From the IMG/VR virus record IMGVR_UViG_3300025168_000650, positions 1 to 24,235 of that record: 24,235 bases of DNA; one strand, written 5' to 3'. The translations under genes and the position numbers were made by a program. Below, in pieces: positions 1 to 5,883 of the stretch. Each line of letters opens with the position of its first letter. The first letter of the stretch is position 1. The notes under the pieces are model-generated. The model saw only the letters and a program-made list of their open reading frames with translations. It did no database searches and was not told the DNA's origin. The DNA comes from a virus.

Positions 1-504
1 CAAGGTGTTTCACGCTATACTAAGCTTAACTTGCAAAGCTATTCACGCTACGGAACAGTAGAGTTTAGAGGTCATCAAGGCACGCTTGATTTTACTAAGA
101 TTGTTGCATGGGTTGCATTAACTCAAAACATTACTCTTAAGAGTAAAACCAAAGTTAAGCAGACTAACATTAAATATAATAATAACATGTATAATCTTTT
201 GCTCTCTACAGGGTGGGCAACTAGAGACGGCAAGAGATTAAGAGCCAAGAGCTTGGCTTGTCATTCGCTTTGTTCCTATATCATTGAAAGGCAATTGCAT
301 TTTGGCTTTCATAATGTTGCTCCAACTCTATTGGCTTATGAAGTGCCAATGTCGTCAACAAATGCCAAGATTGTTGCAACTCAAGCAATGGTAAATCTTA
401 GGAATCATATTTTAGAATCTTACCAAAATATGCGAGGCAATGAGATTGCGATTTGTTTAGATGATGACAGAATAAGATCTTTCATTGATGAGATGAACCT
501 TTGA
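1..504 (+). CDS. Amidoligase family protein, C-terminal part (5' end cut by window edge)
   Basis: The frame is open from base 1, so the gene starts upstream and only the last 167 residues are visible. They include SRYTKLNLQS followed by RYGTVEFRGHQGTLD and a KIVAWVALTQ segment. From memory this is the C-terminal signature of the amidoligase family (glutamine-synthetase-like fold COOH-NH2 ligases), which make amide bonds between a carboxylate and an amine with ATP. The TTG at 31 is only an in-frame codon, not a likely start. A rho-independent terminator follows 23 bases after the stop. The next gene encodes glutamine amidotransferase and gamma-glutamylcyclotransferase domains, a combination I recall as typical of amidoligase neighbourhoods. 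The substrate cannot be told from sequence; cell-wall or protein-peptide modification are the usual proposals. The family call is fairly secure, the role is inference. Confidence 0.72.
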   Translation, partial: QGVSRYTKLNLQSYSRYGTVEFRGHQGTLDFTKIVAWVALTQNITLKSKTKVKQTNIKYNNNMYNLLLSTGWATRDGKRLRAKSLACHSLCSYIIERQLHFGFHNVAPTLLAYEVPMSSTNAKIVATQAMVNLRNHILESYQNMRGNEIAICLDDDRIRSFIDEMNL

Positions 505-526
505 TTGGATCAACATAACCTACAAG

Positions 527-555
527 AAACCCTTTCATTTTGAGAGGGTTTTTTT
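527..555 (+). terminator. Rho-independent terminator of the amidoligase gene
   Basis: AAACCCT (527-533) pairs with AGGGTTT (545-551) across an 11-base loop, and the T run 549-555 follows. It lies just after the amidoligase stop codon and fits the end of that transcript. Confidence 0.75.
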
Positions 556-658
556 GTGTCTATATGCTTCGCTTAGATTGCTTTGCTTGTCTTAATACTT
601 GGCAAATATTCAAGGCAATTCTAGAGCGTTTTAGGCGTGTTTATTTGGCTTTCTTTTT

Positions 659-775
659 CTGTCTGTCTGTCTGTCTTTGCTCTATCTGTCTTTGCTTTGC
701 TTTGAGCTTTGCTTGAGCTTTGCTTGAGCTGTCGCTGTCGATCTCTCAAGCGTTCACGCTGTCGCTGTCTGTCAT
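659..775. repeat. Simple-sequence stretch: CTGT tetranucleotide run and TTTGCT/GAGCT repeats
   Basis: Bases 659-675 are (CTGT)4C. Then come repeats of CTTTGCTT and TTGAGCTTTGC, and two GCTGTCGCTGTC units flanking CTCTCAAGCGTTCACGC. One minus-strand frame is open through part of this and would encode an Arg/Gln/Lys-rich peptide, but it has no ATG start and looks like a by-product of the repeats. Confidence 0.55.
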
Positions 776-784
776 TTTAAATCA

Positions 785-855
785 GGGAAGCTCAGGGAAT
801 TTAATTTATCGCTGGGAAGCTCAGGGAATGGCTATTCCTGGGAAGCTCTGGGAAG
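785..855. repeat. Three iteron-like copies of a GGGAAGCTC repeat
   Basis: GGGAAGCTCAGGGAAT occurs at 785-800 and 814-829, with a variant GGGAAGCTCTGGGAAG at 840-855, at spacings of 29 and 26 bases. Each unit has two half-sites of type C(A/T)GGGAA, giving six in about 70 bases, all in the same orientation. This resembles an iteron or multi-site binding array; no binding protein can be assigned. Confidence 0.65.
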
Positions 856-942
856 TCCGTTATTAAAAATCGGTCTAAAAGGTGCATATAATAAGGGATC
901 TATAAAAAGCTTATGAATAAAGAAAGGGAATAAATAACCTAT

Positions 943-978
943 AAAGGGTAACCTATTTTTAAAGGGTAACCTATTTTT
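943..978. repeat. Perfect 18-base tandem duplication carrying GGGTAACC
   Basis: AAAGGGTAACCTATTTTT occurs at 943-960 and again directly at 961-978. Each copy centres on GGGTAACC(T), the same dyad core that recurs through the plus-strand half of the window. Confidence 0.8.
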
Positions 979-991
979 TGTATCGGAATAA

Positions 992-1033
992 AAAAGGGTG
1001 ACCCATTTAATTTACAAAGGGGTTACCCTTTTT
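992..1033 (+). terminator. Terminator-like hairpin built from two GGGTNACCC dyads
   Basis: AAAAGGGTGACCC (992-1004) can pair with GGGTTACCCTTTT (1020-1032), 13 pairs with one G-U, and a T run 1029-1033 overlaps the 3' arm. No gene lies directly upstream, so it may insulate the downstream promoter or have another role. Each arm is itself a near-palindrome, so a protein-binding site is equally possible. Confidence 0.5.
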
Positions 1034-1201
1034 GCCCTATATTGATTATGCCAATCGCCTGCAATCCCTTTATTTAAGCCAATCCATGCACCAGCCTTCA
1101 CCAGCTAAAACGCCTGACCTGTGGCTGCACAAGATCCGGATCTCCGTCAGGGGCTGAGGGGACCAAAAATTGTAGAACAAGAACGCACTAAAAAAAAGTC
1201 A

Positions 1202-1230
1202 TTGACAAATAGTGAACAGGTGTACACAAT
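1202..1230 (+). promoter_or_regulatory. Sigma70-like promoter for the amidotransferase operon
   Basis: A perfect TTGACA (1202-1207) is followed by 17 bases and CACAAT (1225-1230, 4 of 6 to TATAAT). It gives a leader of about 30 bases before the ATG at 1267. The leader is AT-rich with no clear Shine-Dalgarno sequence. AGAACGCACT lies 12 bases upstream (1180-1189); the same ten bases abut the promoter at 3485. Confidence 0.5.
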
Positions 1231-1266
1231 ACAGGTTAAATTATAACTATTAACAATAAATATCAT

Positions 1267-2187
1267 ATGTGCTTAATTATACATAAACCAAAAAACAAAC
1301 GTATCCCTGTTAGGGTACTAGAGAAAGCCAAAATCGTGAATCCTCACGGCTTCGGCATTACTTATCTTGATGACGGCAAGACCTTGCGTTCTCTATCATA
1401 CAAGAGCGTTAACAAGCTAGTCGACACGGACAGACCTATTGTGTGTCACTTTCGCTTTGCCACTGTAGGTTCTATCAACCTATCCAATGTTCACCCATTC
1501 GCCATTGATGACAAATACATTTTGTATTCTAATGGTACAGTCAAAGGCTACGGCACAGATGCCGTTTCCGATGTAGCGTACATTGCAAGCGATGTCTTGC
1601 CAAGGCTTCGCAAGAAAGATTGGTTACCCTTTTTGGAATTAACTGAAACACGGTTTGCTCTTATCGATGTTAAAAACGGCAGAGTCAAAAGAGTCGGCAA
1701 GTGGTTCGATCAAGGTGGTGTCTATTACTCAAAGAACAATTGCTTTGTGTACGATATGCAGAGAGGTAACGACAAGCATAGGGTCGCAGTCTATGGGACT
1801 CTCAAGAGAGGCTACGGCAATCATAGGTTGCTTGCTGATTCGGAGTTCATTGGCAAAGCCAAGACCGAAGATAGCTATCCCTTGCTTGTAAATGGGTTAC
1901 CCTATTTGTATGATGAAATAGGTGTAGGTGAGCAAGTCAGATTAGAAGTCTATGATGTAGACGATAAAACCTTTGATGCATTGGATTCATTGGAGGGACA
2001 TCCTACATTTTATGAGAGACGAAAGATTTGGGTTGCAATGGACGATTGGAGCAAGGCAGAGTGTTGGGTCTACTTCATCAATCAAGAGCTTCCTAGAGGC
2101 ACTACAAGAGAGCAGATGTGCTATAGCTACACAGGACAAAGCTTTCAACGAAACAACGCTTGGTACGAATCTTGTATCAAGGATTAA
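1267..2187 (+). CDS. Class II glutamine amidotransferase fused to gamma-glutamylcyclotransferase
   Basis: This 306-residue protein has two enzyme domains. Residues 1-163 read as a class II glutamine amidotransferase: Cys2 directly after Met is the expected N-terminal nucleophile, with HFRFAT (61-66), SNVHPF (73-78) and SNG (88-90) as counterparts of the usual H-R-AT, NxHPF and HNG motifs. Residues 171-306 read as a gamma-glutamylcyclotransferase/AIG2-like domain: YGTLKRG at 176-182 and the expected catalytic Glu243 in DSLEGHPTFY. The first domain would take ammonia from glutamine; the second cleaves gamma-glutamyl-amine bonds, releasing 5-oxoproline. The neighbouring amidoligase would form the related bond, so a peptide-modifying pathway is likely. 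The substrate is unknown. No Shine-Dalgarno is visible, but the start is fixed by Cys2. The gene heads a three-gene unit. Confidence 0.85.
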   Translation: MCLIIHKPKNKRIPVRVLEKAKIVNPHGFGITYLDDGKTLRSLSYKSVNKLVDTDRPIVCHFRFATVGSINLSNVHPFAIDDKYILYSNGTVKGYGTDAVSDVAYIASDVLPRLRKKDWLPFLELTETRFALIDVKNGRVKRVGKWFDQGGVYYSKNNCFVYDMQRGNDKHRVAVYGTLKRGYGNHRLLADSEFIGKAKTEDSYPLLVNGLPYLYDEIGVGEQVRLEVYDVDDKTFDALDSLEGHPTFYERRKIWVAMDDWSKAECWVYFINQELPRGTTREQMCYSYTGQSFQRNNAWYESCIKD

Positions 2188-2217: not shown

Positions 2218-2643
2218 ATGCCAAATTGGGTAACAACTATTATAAATATAGAAGGAGAACAGAAAGATTTAGATGCTTTCAAAAAGTTCTCTATTAACGA
2301 CAATTATTATGTCCGAGAGGAAAAGCTTGAAGACAGAAGGATCTTGTTTGATTTCGGTAGGTACATACCAATGCCGAAAGATGAAGAATGGTACAATTGG
2401 AATTGTGACAATTGGGGTACTAAGTGGAATGCTAACTATGTCGATTGGGGAGAAGAAACAGAAGGCGAAATACGCTTACAGTTTGATACGGCATGGGGTC
2501 GTATCTCAGACAAGCTATGGGAGGCTATTAAAGCAAAGTTTCCTACTCTTGTTTTCGACCTATCAGCAGACGAAGAGGCAGGATTTTTTCACTCAGATAC
2601 AATTGATGGAAGAATCGTAGATACAGAGGGGGAAAGAAAATGA
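2218..2643 (+). CDS. Api92-like phage protein (ferredoxin-like fold)
   Basis: 141 residues. It starts MPNWVTTIINIEG, has IPMPKDEEWYNW near residue 50, WGTKWNANYVDW near 75-86, and an FDTAWGRISDKLWEAIKAKF segment near 98-117. This N terminus and the WGTKW and F-x-TAW boxes match, from memory, the Api92-like proteins with a ferredoxin-like domain found in many phages and mobile elements, whose function is not established. AAGGAAA about ten bases upstream supports the start. The end overlaps the next gene by four bases (ATGA), so the two are translationally coupled. The tryptophan and acidic content is marked. The family call is good, the function unknown. Confidence 0.72.
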   Translation: MPNWVTTIINIEGEQKDLDAFKKFSINDNYYVREEKLEDRRILFDFGRYIPMPKDEEWYNWNCDNWGTKWNANYVDWGEETEGEIRLQFDTAWGRISDKLWEAIKAKFPTLVFDLSADEEAGFFHSDTIDGRIVDTEGERK

Positions 2644-3011
2644 TTACATTAACTCAACTGATATTAGTCCTGTGCCTTGTCGAGAGTTCTCTTGATCCTA
2701 ATGCTATAGGAGATGGAGGCGATGCCGTTGGGATATTGCAGATTCATGAATGCGTGATTCAAGATGTCAATCGGATCTACAAGACGGATTATAACCTTAA
2801 TGACAGATACGATCCTATGCTATCCAAAATGATATGCAGAAAGTATTTGAGCCATTGGGGTAAAGTCTACACTAAAAGAACAGGAAAAGAACCTACTGCC
2901 GAGATTCTAGCGAAGATATGGAATGGTGGAGCGTTAGCTTATGAAAAAACAAACCCGAAGGTTGTGGAAAGGCTTGACGCATATTGGAGAAAGGTGCATA
3001 AACTTTTGTAA
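2640..3011 (+). CDS. Lysozyme-like (SLT-type) muramidase, probable endolysin
   Basis: 123 residues. The segment VESSLDPNAIGDGGDAVGILQIH (residues 14-36) matches the transglycosylase/lysozyme core: catalytic Glu15 in ESSLDP, then AVGILQIH. Later IWNGGALAYEKT (about 93-104) fits the family's WNGG-Y motif. Such enzymes cut the N-acetylmuramic acid to N-acetylglucosamine link in peptidoglycan. The catalytic Glu is only 15 residues from the N terminus and sits at the end of a hydrophobic helix (LTQLILVLCLV), so there is no room for a cleavable signal peptide; export would need a holin or the helix itself. It overlaps the previous gene by ATGA, and GGGGG precedes the start. It is probably the lysis enzyme; a virion-associated wall hydrolase is less likely, since it is far from the structural genes. 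Confidence 0.72.
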   Translation: MITLTQLILVLCLVESSLDPNAIGDGGDAVGILQIHECVIQDVNRIYKTDYNLNDRYDPMLSKMICRKYLSHWGKVYTKRTGKEPTAEILAKIWNGGALAYEKTNPKVVERLDAYWRKVHKLL

Positions 3012-3338: not shown

Positions 3339-3374
3339 GGGTGACCCTTTCTATAAAAGGGGTGACCCTTTTTT
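3339..3374. repeat. Two direct copies of the GGGGTGACCC dyad with T tail
   Basis: GGGGTGACCC at 3338-3347 and 3359-3368, each preceded by A runs and followed by T runs. A run of six T (3369-3374) follows the second, so terminator activity for plus-strand transcripts is possible. Each unit is nearly self-complementary without a loop, which also fits a dimeric protein's operator. Confidence 0.65.
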
Positions 3375-4110: not shown

Positions 4111-4254
4111 ATGGAATACTCAGAAGAAATACTACAAGAGCTTCTTAACATAGGGGCGGAGGAATCAAAGCAAGGGAATTTTTCCCTTTTGGATCATATA
4201 ACAACTGCAATTCAAATCGTAGAGAACAGAAAGGGGCATAAGATATGTGGGTAG
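4111..4254 (+). CDS. 47-residue unknown protein
   Basis: A short ORF, MEYSEEILQELLNIGAEESK through to HKICG, starting one base after the preceding stop and overlapping the next start by ten bases. The first part reads as an amphipathic helix and the middle has FSLLDHITTAIQIVENRK, again helical. The tight spacing on both sides and the lack of any other gene in this interval support it. Function unknown; the codon count is too small for a fold call. Confidence 0.45.
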   Translation: MEYSEEILQELLNIGAEESKQGNFSLLDHITTAIQIVENRKGHKICG

Positions 4255-4559
4255 TAATATACAAAGCAGATCAAGTGGTCAGAACCTACCACCAAACGTT
4301 CAAGACTAGAGCAGAAGCGAAGTCTTGGATGCTCGAATACATAGAGTACGGAGGCTCTGGTGCGTTGCTCTGTAGGGCAACTGAGGGCTTCGGTAGCCTA
4401 TTGTACGATGATGATGACCTGCCATTAGAGATGCAGTCAGATCACAAACTAAACGAAGTACTAAATGACATGGAGTCCAATGGCATATGCGAAAAGAACA
4501 ACAGAATTATACATTCATCGGAAAGCACGCTAAAGAGTACGGAATCAATAACGCAGTAG
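4245..4559 (+). CDS. Small protein of unknown function overlapping the replication gene
   Basis: 104 residues. The N-terminal part (MWVVIYKADQVVRTYHQTF, then TRAEAKSWMLEYIEYGG) looks like a compact beta-alpha domain of the sort found in many tiny phage proteins. It is followed by an acidic segment, YDDDDLPLEMQ. The last 25 residues overlap the next gene by 73 bases in a different frame and are low in complexity, so this tail may be unimportant. AGGGG lies about nine bases before the ATG and supports the start. Not recognised. Confidence 0.55.
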   Translation: MWVVIYKADQVVRTYHQTFKTRAEAKSWMLEYIEYGGSGALLCRATEGFGSLLYDDDDLPLEMQSDHKLNEVLNDMESNGICEKNNRIIHSSESTLKSTESITQ

Positions 4560-4951
4560 TACTGCATACCATAATCTACTTTGTATTATCTAATAGAAGA
4601 CAGAAACTCAACCTTCACAAGGGAAAGTATTGGGTCTTTAACTCTAGTACAAAGTGGATTTATTTTTTTCCATTTTTATCTCAGCACCAAATATACAGGT
4701 GTCTTAAAGACCTTGTCAAAAAAGGTGCAGTCATTGAAGATTCTTTCAACAGAAAAGGCTACGACAAAACACTGTGGCACACACTATCAGATGCCGTCCT
4801 CAAGGATTGCGTTAAAGATTCTTATTGGAAAAACAGAATGCGAAAGCCTCTTGCAAAACTGCAAAAGGGTACTTGCAAATCTGCAAGACCAATACCAAAC
4901 ATAAATACAACAATAGATACAGATGTCCTAGATGGGATAGAACCTTATTAA
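4487..4951 (+). CDS. Winged-helix replication-type protein
   Basis: 154 residues. Residues about 45-85 read KGKYWVFNSS, FPFLSQHQIYRCLKDLVKKG, then DSFNRKGYDKTLWHTL. From memory this is the winged-helix pattern of phage replication-initiation and DnaD/RepA-like proteins: a tryptophan-bearing first helix, PFLS-xxQI-RxL as recognition helix, then a beta wing ending in D-T-W-x-xL. The N terminus (FIGKHAKEYGINNAVVLHTI) also fits these proteins. A GGAG lies 11 bases upstream of the ATG. A basic, Lys-rich tail follows the domain. It probably binds origin DNA or helps load the DnaB-type helicase encoded at 9890. DNA binding is fairly secure; the origin role is inference. Confidence 0.65.
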   Translation: MRKEQQNYTFIGKHAKEYGINNAVVLHTIIYFVLSNRRQKLNLHKGKYWVFNSSTKWIYFFPFLSQHQIYRCLKDLVKKGAVIEDSFNRKGYDKTLWHTLSDAVLKDCVKDSYWKNRMRKPLAKLQKGTCKSARPIPNINTTIDTDVLDGIEPY

Positions 4952-4953
4952 TT

Positions 4954-5118
4954 ATGGGAAAAGGAATGCAACCGAAAAAGGGCTACAATCAAAAAGCCTA
5001 CGAAAATAATTACGACTCCATCAATTGGAGTTCAACCCGAAACAAATCAAAAGCCAATGATGACAACAAGATTATTAACGAAACAAATGTCCAAAACAAA
5101 AATCAAAACAAAAACTAA
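4954..5118 (+). CDS. 54-residue basic, Asn-rich protein
   Basis: Start chosen at the ATG two bases after the preceding stop; an upstream in-frame ATG at 4825 would overlap the replication gene by over 120 bases and is rejected. The protein begins MGKGMQPKKGYNQKAYENNYDSINW. I recall similar MGKG-x-xP...Y-x-x-NYD-x-I short proteins in many phage genomes, without known function. The second half is a low-complexity Lys/Asn stretch ending NVQNKNQNKN. It sits between the winged-helix and exonuclease genes, so a link to DNA metabolism is possible. Confidence 0.5.
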   Translation: MGKGMQPKKGYNQKAYENNYDSINWSSTRNKSKANDDNKIINETNVQNKNQNKN

Positions 5119-5121
5119 GAA

Positions 5122-5883
5122 ATGAGTGACGGACATTTTTACAACTGCAAGGGTGAACCATTCTTAACTGATGCTTCGACACCTGCACAAGCCAAGAAGG
5201 TTAAAGCGTTGCCTTCTGTTACAACTATCCTGGGGATTCAAAAGAATGAGTTCCTAGACGAAATATGGGGGCCTAGGAAATTAGTAGAGCTTGCTAGAGA
5301 GTTCCCGTTTGCAAGCACGACAGAGCTTAAAGATATGCGTTACGGATTCAGGATAAATCCGGAAAATGGGTCACCCATTAAATCATCGGACTTTGGTACA
5401 GCAGTTCACGCTAGGCTAGAAGACAGGATTAATTACTTGATGCACGGGAAAGAACTTCAAACAAAAGTTTCACCCTTCGATGGATGGGCTGATCCTTTTA
5501 TTGAGTTCATTGCTAAGAATAAAATTGAGCCTTTGCATTGCGAAAAGATACTGTACTGCAATAGGGATAAGTCAGCAGGTTCAGTAGATTTTATAGCAAA
5601 GGTACAAGGCAAGTACCATCTATTTGACTACAAGTGCCGAAACACTAAAGGCACAGGTGGCAAGTTCTACGAAACAAAAGACTGCACGCAGTTGGCTATT
5701 GAATCCAAGTGGCTGCAGAAGGACTTGGGTTTAGATTACGAACCTGCCATAACTAGTGTCTGCATATGCACCGAGAGTAGAAACCATTACCATAAAAATT
5801 GGAATAGTACTCAAATGCGTAAAGGAGTGCAACGCTTTAGGCACTTAGCTAAACTCTATTGGATGGATTGGATGCGTAAATGA
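5122..5883 (+). CDS. PD-(D/E)XK exonuclease, RecB/Cas4-like
   Basis: 253 residues. The pattern of a RecB-family nuclease is visible: PSVTTIL near 31-37, FGTAVHARLED (91-101) with His96, CEKILY with Glu141, GSVDFIA with Asp156, then FDYKCR with Asp169 and Lys171, and a following Gln190 in CTQLAIES. His, Asp, Asp-x-Lys and Gln are the expected metal-binding and catalytic positions. In phages such enzymes work as recombination exonucleases paired with a single-strand annealing protein, and an Erf gene lies about 2.6 kb downstream. The gene starts three bases after the previous stop and ends with an ATGA overlap into the next. Direction of resection and cofactor cannot be read. Confidence 0.78.
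   Translation: MSDGHFYNCKGEPFLTDASTPAQAKKVKALPSVTTILGIQKNEFLDEIWGPRKLVELAREFPFASTTELKDMRYGFRINPENGSPIKSSDFGTAVHARLEDRINYLMHGKELQTKVSPFDGWADPFIEFIAKNKIEPLHCEKILYCNRDKSAGSVDFIAKVQGKYHLFDYKCRNTKGTGGKFYETKDCTQLAIESKWLQKDLGLDYEPAITSVCICTESRNHYHKNWNSTQMRKGVQRFRHLAKLYWMDWMRK

Follow-up and report, generated by a model that had tools for sequence, protein, structure and literature searches.

The DNA analyzed here (hereafter the window) is the viral record IMGVR_UViG_3300025168_000650, 24,235 bases in length, and its first 2187 positions carry two genes on the + strand. An open reading frame (ORF) at positions 1–504, open at the window edge with its 5′ end outside, encodes the C-terminal part of an amidoligase. 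A second ORF, at positions 1267–2187, encodes a single 306-residue protein in which an N-terminal nucleophile (Ntn) domain resembling class II amidotransferases is followed by a gamma-glutamylamine-cyclotransferase-like domain. An earlier note on this DNA had named these three domains and the fusion, and Pfam profiles, active-site residues, and folds agree with each identity. We identify the pair as a reduced, fused variant of an amidoligase cassette already known from phages.

The ORF at 1–504 matched the Pfam family Amidoligase_2 (PF12224) over profile positions 203–244 of 245 (E 4e-8, 33.7 bits for a cut-off of 22). The N-terminal ligase motifs lie outside the window copy and were read in relatives, including contigs L009–L011, which carry a fusion 92% identical to the window’s along with a whole ligase. 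In L009, the complete amidoligase (4200–5312, 370 aa) covers profile positions 3–244 (E 1e-26, 94.6 bits, cut-off 22). Across an alignment of 15 ligases, acidic, His, and Arg positions were near-invariant (ExE, E87, HxH, N207, E218, and R220 in L009 numbering). The best fold matches of the predicted L009 model (predicted local distance difference test, pLDDT, 84.8) were glutamine synthetases (Z about 13–14), and the match list included GmaS, a 1-naphthylamine glutamine synthetase homologue, and YbdK. The earlier note had allowed that the missing N-terminal part might lack ligase motifs; the full-length relatives have both the motifs and the predicted glutamine synthetase fold, and by alignment and model the window ORF is the tail of such an amidoligase. 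GmaS, the 1-naphthylamine-type glutamine synthetase homologues, and YbdK share this fold with the phage ligase, and the known chemistry of the GmaS-type relatives and YbdK is ATP-dependent formation of gamma-glutamyl amides. The phage enzyme differs from them in belonging to the Amidoligase_2 branch, with only 11–17% identity to this group.

In the fused protein, the GGACT/AIG2 cyclotransferase-like domain spans residues 173–306 (positions 1783–2184, + strand), of which residues 173–275 matched Pfam with an E value of 1e-21 (78.1 bits, cut-off 22.8). Its nearest folds were human and mouse GGACT (Z 18–19, 30–32% identity), with a 5-oxoproline complex among the matches. Compared to GGACT (PDB 3jub, 1vkb), the domain has the same fold (Z about 19), the YGTLKRG motif, and a catalytic glutamate in the corresponding position (Glu243 here, Glu82 in GGACT), but is only about 30% identical and is fused C-terminally to an Ntn domain. 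The Ntn domain itself spans residues 1–165 (positions 1267–1761, + strand) and showed a weak sequence match to class II amidotransferases (E 2.6e-4), together with the full class II residue set (Cys2, HFR63FAT, Asn89-Gly90, and Asp102), in which loss of the initiator Met would leave the catalytic Cys at the N-terminus. Its nearest folds were EgtC, an Ntn gamma-glutamyl hydrolase of the ergothioneine pathway (Z 13.5), and the GlmS glutaminase (Z 13.1), a tie. The domain has in common with both the Ntn fold and an active site of N-terminal Cys, Arg, Asn-Gly, and Asp, but it is shorter, has no synthase partner in the same chain, and scored far below the EgtC equivalog model TIGR03442 (16.9 bits for a cut-off of 218.65).

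To evaluate conservation, we assembled 76 distinct homologous sequences from a profile scan of viral contigs, in which the best 80 of 219 relatives were retained, plus other scans; the viral contigs compared are fragments. Nearly all 76 homologues covered both domains, while the distant L131 and L132 matched chiefly the N-terminal half, so that the fusion, which the earlier note had proposed to look for in other phages, is conserved. Cys2, Arg63, Asn89, Gly90, and Asp102 showed no variation across an alignment of 57 sequences or in any of the 72 trimmed sequences, and Tyr176-Gly177-Thr178-Leu179 and Glu243 were likewise constant in the aligned sets. Thus Cys2 and Glu243, for which variation among homologues had been considered, are both fixed. 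Coverage of the fusion query reached 80% or more in only 3 of 50,697 named phage records, hence the protein is known mainly from uncultured phages; the BFVD structure library holds a similar full-length viral protein, A0A516LQR1. Group-2 fusions (e.g., L064 2637–3722 and L112 5001–6083) carry a zinc-ribbon-like CxxC...CxxC tail after the cyclotransferase domain, a further difference from GGACT and one that the window’s clade does not have. In L004, L006, and L008 (MEP402, ctgrD200, and MEP401), the gene immediately after the amidoligase encodes an Ntn amidotransferase-like protein with no cyclotransferase domain, an arrangement that may be an unfused relative of the pair.

The two genes are strongly associated. 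In 68 of the 76 loci, and in 67 of the 70 with at least 1.1 kb of upstream sequence, the fusion was preceded on the same strand by an amidoligase, at distances ranging from ~10 bases to ~4 kb. In the window, the gap is 763 bp and contains a terminator-like hairpin on the + strand (AAACCCTTTC-ATTTT-GAGAGGGTTT followed by a T run, positions 527–551), recognized by sequence inspection and by folding of positions 521–560 (−17.6 kcal/mol, z −4.9, none of 200 shuffles as good), although a simple terminator scan did not list it. This hairpin probably ends the amidoligase transcription unit and, given its strength and the 763-bp gap, the amidoligase is probably outside the operon of the fusion. Operon-like packing is limited to the fusion and the next two + strand genes. 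The first, at 2218–2643, encodes a 141-aa protein with weak similarity to the Api92/DUF1281-like ferredoxin fold (Pfam E 0.01; phrog_12644 E 2e-11) and has counterparts near the fusion in 8 of the 76 loci. The second, at 2640–3011, encodes a small protein with an SLT (lysozyme-like transglycosylase) domain (Pfam E 4e-8). The muramidase that the earlier note had placed in one operon with the other genes is therefore real and packed with the fusion, but the amidoligase probably does not belong to that unit.

Shared operator-like palindromes nonetheless link the two genes in the window’s subclade. An operator-like array of four GGGTNACC(C/T) palindromes (at 946, 964, 996, and 1020; positions 946–1028, strand not assigned) lies upstream of the fusion, and the palindrome GGGTNACCC, often within AAAGGGTNACCCTTT, gave 19 strand matches across the window for 0.65 expected (sites at 946–1028, 1894, 3339–3368, 5368, 8319, and 11544–11573). 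The palindromes cluster ahead of three genes, namely the amidoligase, the fusion, and one other. Relatives with GGGTNACCC arrays are L009, L012, L013, L015, L049, L051, L053, and L056; in the window’s subclade, 3–6 sites were found within 600 bp of the ligase and 3–10 within 600 bp of the fusion, for an expectation of 0.2–0.4 per whole locus. GGGTNACCC is probably the operator of a phage regulator and, since both genes have the arrays in this subclade, one phage protein probably switches them on together.

How does this pair relate to published systems? The context that the earlier note attributed to Iyer and colleagues is indeed on record. According to PMC5498523, PMC6256558, and PMC10580990, through which we cite the proposals of Iyer et al. 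2009 and Hardies et al. 2013, many podoviruses carry a set comprising an amidoligase, an amidotransferase, a cyclotransferase, an ATP-grasp protein, and a second ligase, known from RIO-1, PA11, and relatives of LUZ24/tf and phiEco32; the same papers propose for the multi-gene cassette a role in peptidoglycan modification and the prevention of superinfection. As in the cassettes of the RIO-1, PA11, and phiEco32 type, an Amidoligase_2 enzyme, a class II amidotransferase, and a gamma-glutamyl cyclotransferase lie close together in the early region of a tailed phage. Unlike in those cassettes, the amidotransferase-like and cyclotransferase domains are fused here into one protein of about 285–405 aa, and the Ntn domain is compact (about 165 residues). 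In addition, neither the ATP-grasp protein nor the COOH-NH2 ligase was found in any of 11 fusion-bearing records, including the complete C75C1 and MW202828, although a very divergent ATP-grasp protein might escape a single-sequence query; the same search detected both control phages. What phage amidoligase cassettes act on has been a question since 2009, and a pair of only two proteins, linked in nearly every relative compared and apparently under joint control in the window’s subclade, makes it tractable.

We tentatively propose that the pair forms a two-gene gamma-glutamyl module of tailed phages, in which the ligase would attach a gamma-glutamyl group and the fused protein would remove or trim it. 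With ATP, the amidoligase would couple a carboxylate to an amine; its most likely product is an amine that carries glutamate bound through the gamma carboxyl, as made by GmaS-type enzymes. The Ntn site, similar to EgtC and the GlmS glutaminase, would hydrolyze glutamine or a gamma-glutamyl amide to glutamate, while the GGACT-like site would release 5-oxoproline from a gamma-glutamyl amine. The amine so modified would belong to the host or the phage. The two genes are probably transcribed separately, yet probably switched on together in the window’s subclade. Both the direction of these reactions and the gamma-glutamyl nature of the ligase product are what we infer from the relatives named above. 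The earlier note had gone further and read the fusion as a sign of direct substrate passage between its domains. The predicted model of the fusion (pLDDT 87.8) consists of two well-predicted domains joined by a linker at residues 162–168 with pLDDT < 50, and the predicted template modelling score (pTM) is 0.59; no fixed interdomain arrangement or interface is thus predicted, leaving channelling unsupported, and we rejected it. Attachment and removal, or trimming, of a gamma-glutamyl group fits this anatomy without calling for a channel.

Several observations weigh against this proposal. The Ntn domain fell under the curated Pfam cut-offs (20.4 vs. 23 bits for GATase_4 and 14.9 vs. 27 bits for GATase_6), for which reason we call it amidotransferase-like by fold and residues and place it outside both families. 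The palindrome arrays are absent from L044–L046, L055, L057–L061, and C75C1, and in group-2 relatives as much as ~4 kb can separate the ligase from the fusion. Finally, amidoligases with a glutamine synthetase fold could amidate other carboxylates, and the equal match of the Ntn domain to EgtC and GlmS leaves room for a supply of ammonia to the ligase.

This last possibility leads to the next-best explanation, in which the Ntn domain is a true glutaminase feeding an amidoligase that amidates a carboxylate (e.g., peptidoglycan D-Glu, as MurT/GatD do), with the cyclotransferase clearing gamma-glutamyl by-products. We consider this scheme unlikely, even though it is close to the published idea that altering the wall or surface of the host blocks superinfection and can draw on the proposals for the multi-gene cassette (PMC5498523, PMC6256558, and PMC10580990). 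The fold match to the GlmS glutaminase and the full class II residue set are in its favor, but EgtC matches the Ntn domain just as well. Ammonia transfer is also difficult to reconcile with two separate genes, often kilobases apart and hence without a fused channel, with the disordered linker inside the fusion, and with the failure to find the ATP-grasp protein and second ligase of the published cassette in the 11 fusion-bearing records. The SLT gene adjoining the fusion in the window would suit a wall target, and the earlier note had argued for peptidoglycan from this neighbor; however, an SLT gene stands beside the fusion in only 4 of the 76 loci and so does not travel with the pair, and its operon probably does not include the amidoligase. 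We therefore rejected the argument from this neighbor.

Small gamma-glutamyl amides are the substrates of GGACT and EgtC relatives, and the pair could instead serve as a metabolic helper or in counter-defense, making or destroying a small gamma-glutamyl metabolite (a polyamine, a glutathione-like thiol, or a defense signal) with no macromolecule modified. We judge this quite improbable: the fold matches to GGACT and EgtC and the auxiliary metabolism proposed in PMC10945688 for a comparable set of genes of phage ZRK32 speak for it, but the gene neighborhood gives no pointer to a metabolite and the pair had no match in the PADLOC library, which covers defense rather than counter-defense proteins. 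The same null result led us to reject membership of a defense system.

Returning to the fusion gene, a subset of relatives interrupts it with an in-frame stop codon. Residue 119 is an invariant Trp, encoded by TGG in the window (positions 1621–1623, + strand) and by UGA in 13 distinct sequences of one group-2 clade (L136, L079, L133, L134, L122, L116, L123, L137, L160, L161, L162, L181, and L183). The clade diverges down to about 57% identity, yet several of its sequences are closely related, which leaves only a small number of independent lineages: roughly four deep ones and, outside the clade, two separate cases. These are L127 (=L046), with UGA at the same Trp119 codon, and L044 and L045, with an in-frame UGA at codon 40; UGA has thus arisen in the fusion gene at least twice more. 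None of the interrupted homologues had UAA or UAG at the interrupted position. In six whole UGA contigs, no in-frame UGA other than the one at the Trp119 site had consistent homology support, a result that rests on a filtered test because unfiltered tblastn picks up antisense ORFs.

Programmed readthrough of this UGA is probably the best reading of these patterns. Codons 120–165, after the UGA, are under purifying selection, with non-synonymous to synonymous ratios (pN/pS) of 0.11–0.36 in deep pairs. The strongest synonymous constraint in the gene starts at the UGA and extends over roughly ten codons beyond it (P 0.0005 by column shuffling, which takes columns as exchangeable), while two TGG control sets showed no such window. 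A hairpin core was predicted 3′ of the UGA in 12 of 12 sequences, but with z from +0.6 to −3.1, often no better than shuffles, and with no covariation. The UGA-A context, considered as a sign of leakiness, was uninformative and set aside, since an A comes next after TGG as well, in 47 of 63 homologues. We lean, modestly, toward a scenario in which these relatives make the fusion only through programmed readthrough of the conserved UGA, aided by a conserved 3′ RNA element, with its level set at translation (e.g., by release factor 2 or the supply of Trp-tRNA). In the predicted model, the last strands of the Ntn domain lie beyond residue 118 and would be lost on termination there; the short product would then probably be inactive, and readthrough would set the enzyme level.

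The competing explanation for the UGA-bearing relatives invokes no programming: the phages or their hosts read UGA as Trp or selenocysteine, or the genes are pseudogenes. In its favor, sparse recoding would place UGA at an invariant Trp, as seen here, and a weak hairpin is predicted 3′ of the UGA. Yet across the six whole contigs about 360 Trp positions in homologous genes are TGG, no other in-frame TGA has consistent homology support, and 2–7 genes per contig terminate in TGA, with no UCA-anticodon tRNA found in the UGA contigs; on these grounds, we rejected global recoding. The aligned residue is Trp rather than Cys and there was no Rfam match at the UGA, and we rejected a bacterial selenocysteine insertion sequence on this ground and because the residue is of the wrong class. 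The pN/pS values, well below 1 after the UGA, indicate that the genes are not pseudogenes. Overall, we give an unprogrammed UGA little credence. Re-initiation inside the gene was likewise rejected, as there is no conserved start just downstream and codons 120–165 are under selection.

A known parallel is the A1 protein of phage Qbeta, an extended protein made when a leaky UGA is read as Trp. The UGA-bearing relatives, and only they, would be similar in having a leaky UGA in a phage gene with Trp insertion, and would differ from Qbeta in being DNA phages, with the UGA inside an enzyme domain and followed by conserved 3′ nucleotides; for them, readthrough is a prediction from sequence. If it occurs, it would represent a rare case of stop-codon readthrough within a DNA phage gene for a metabolic enzyme, with the inserted Trp restoring the residue seen in all other homologues. 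Our searches of the open-access literature turned up no description of UGA readthrough in an enzyme of a DNA phage, a weak sign that the case is new.

Further features were noted around the pair. A candidate sigma-70-like promoter of the fusion, TTGACA-17-CACAAT (positions 1202–1230, + strand), is a weak prediction from a consensus scan (10 of 12 matches), in a region where such sites are no more numerous than in shuffles. Also within the gap between the amidoligase and the fusion, a direct repeat of 25 nt with the core GGGAAGCTCAGGGAAT occurs in three inexact copies at positions 776–855. Among the matches listed, the only one to a genome contig was L115 (WTJX01000555.1), a contig binned in a Cytophagales metagenome-assembled genome that encodes a fusion homologue and may be a phage contig or an indication of the host group.

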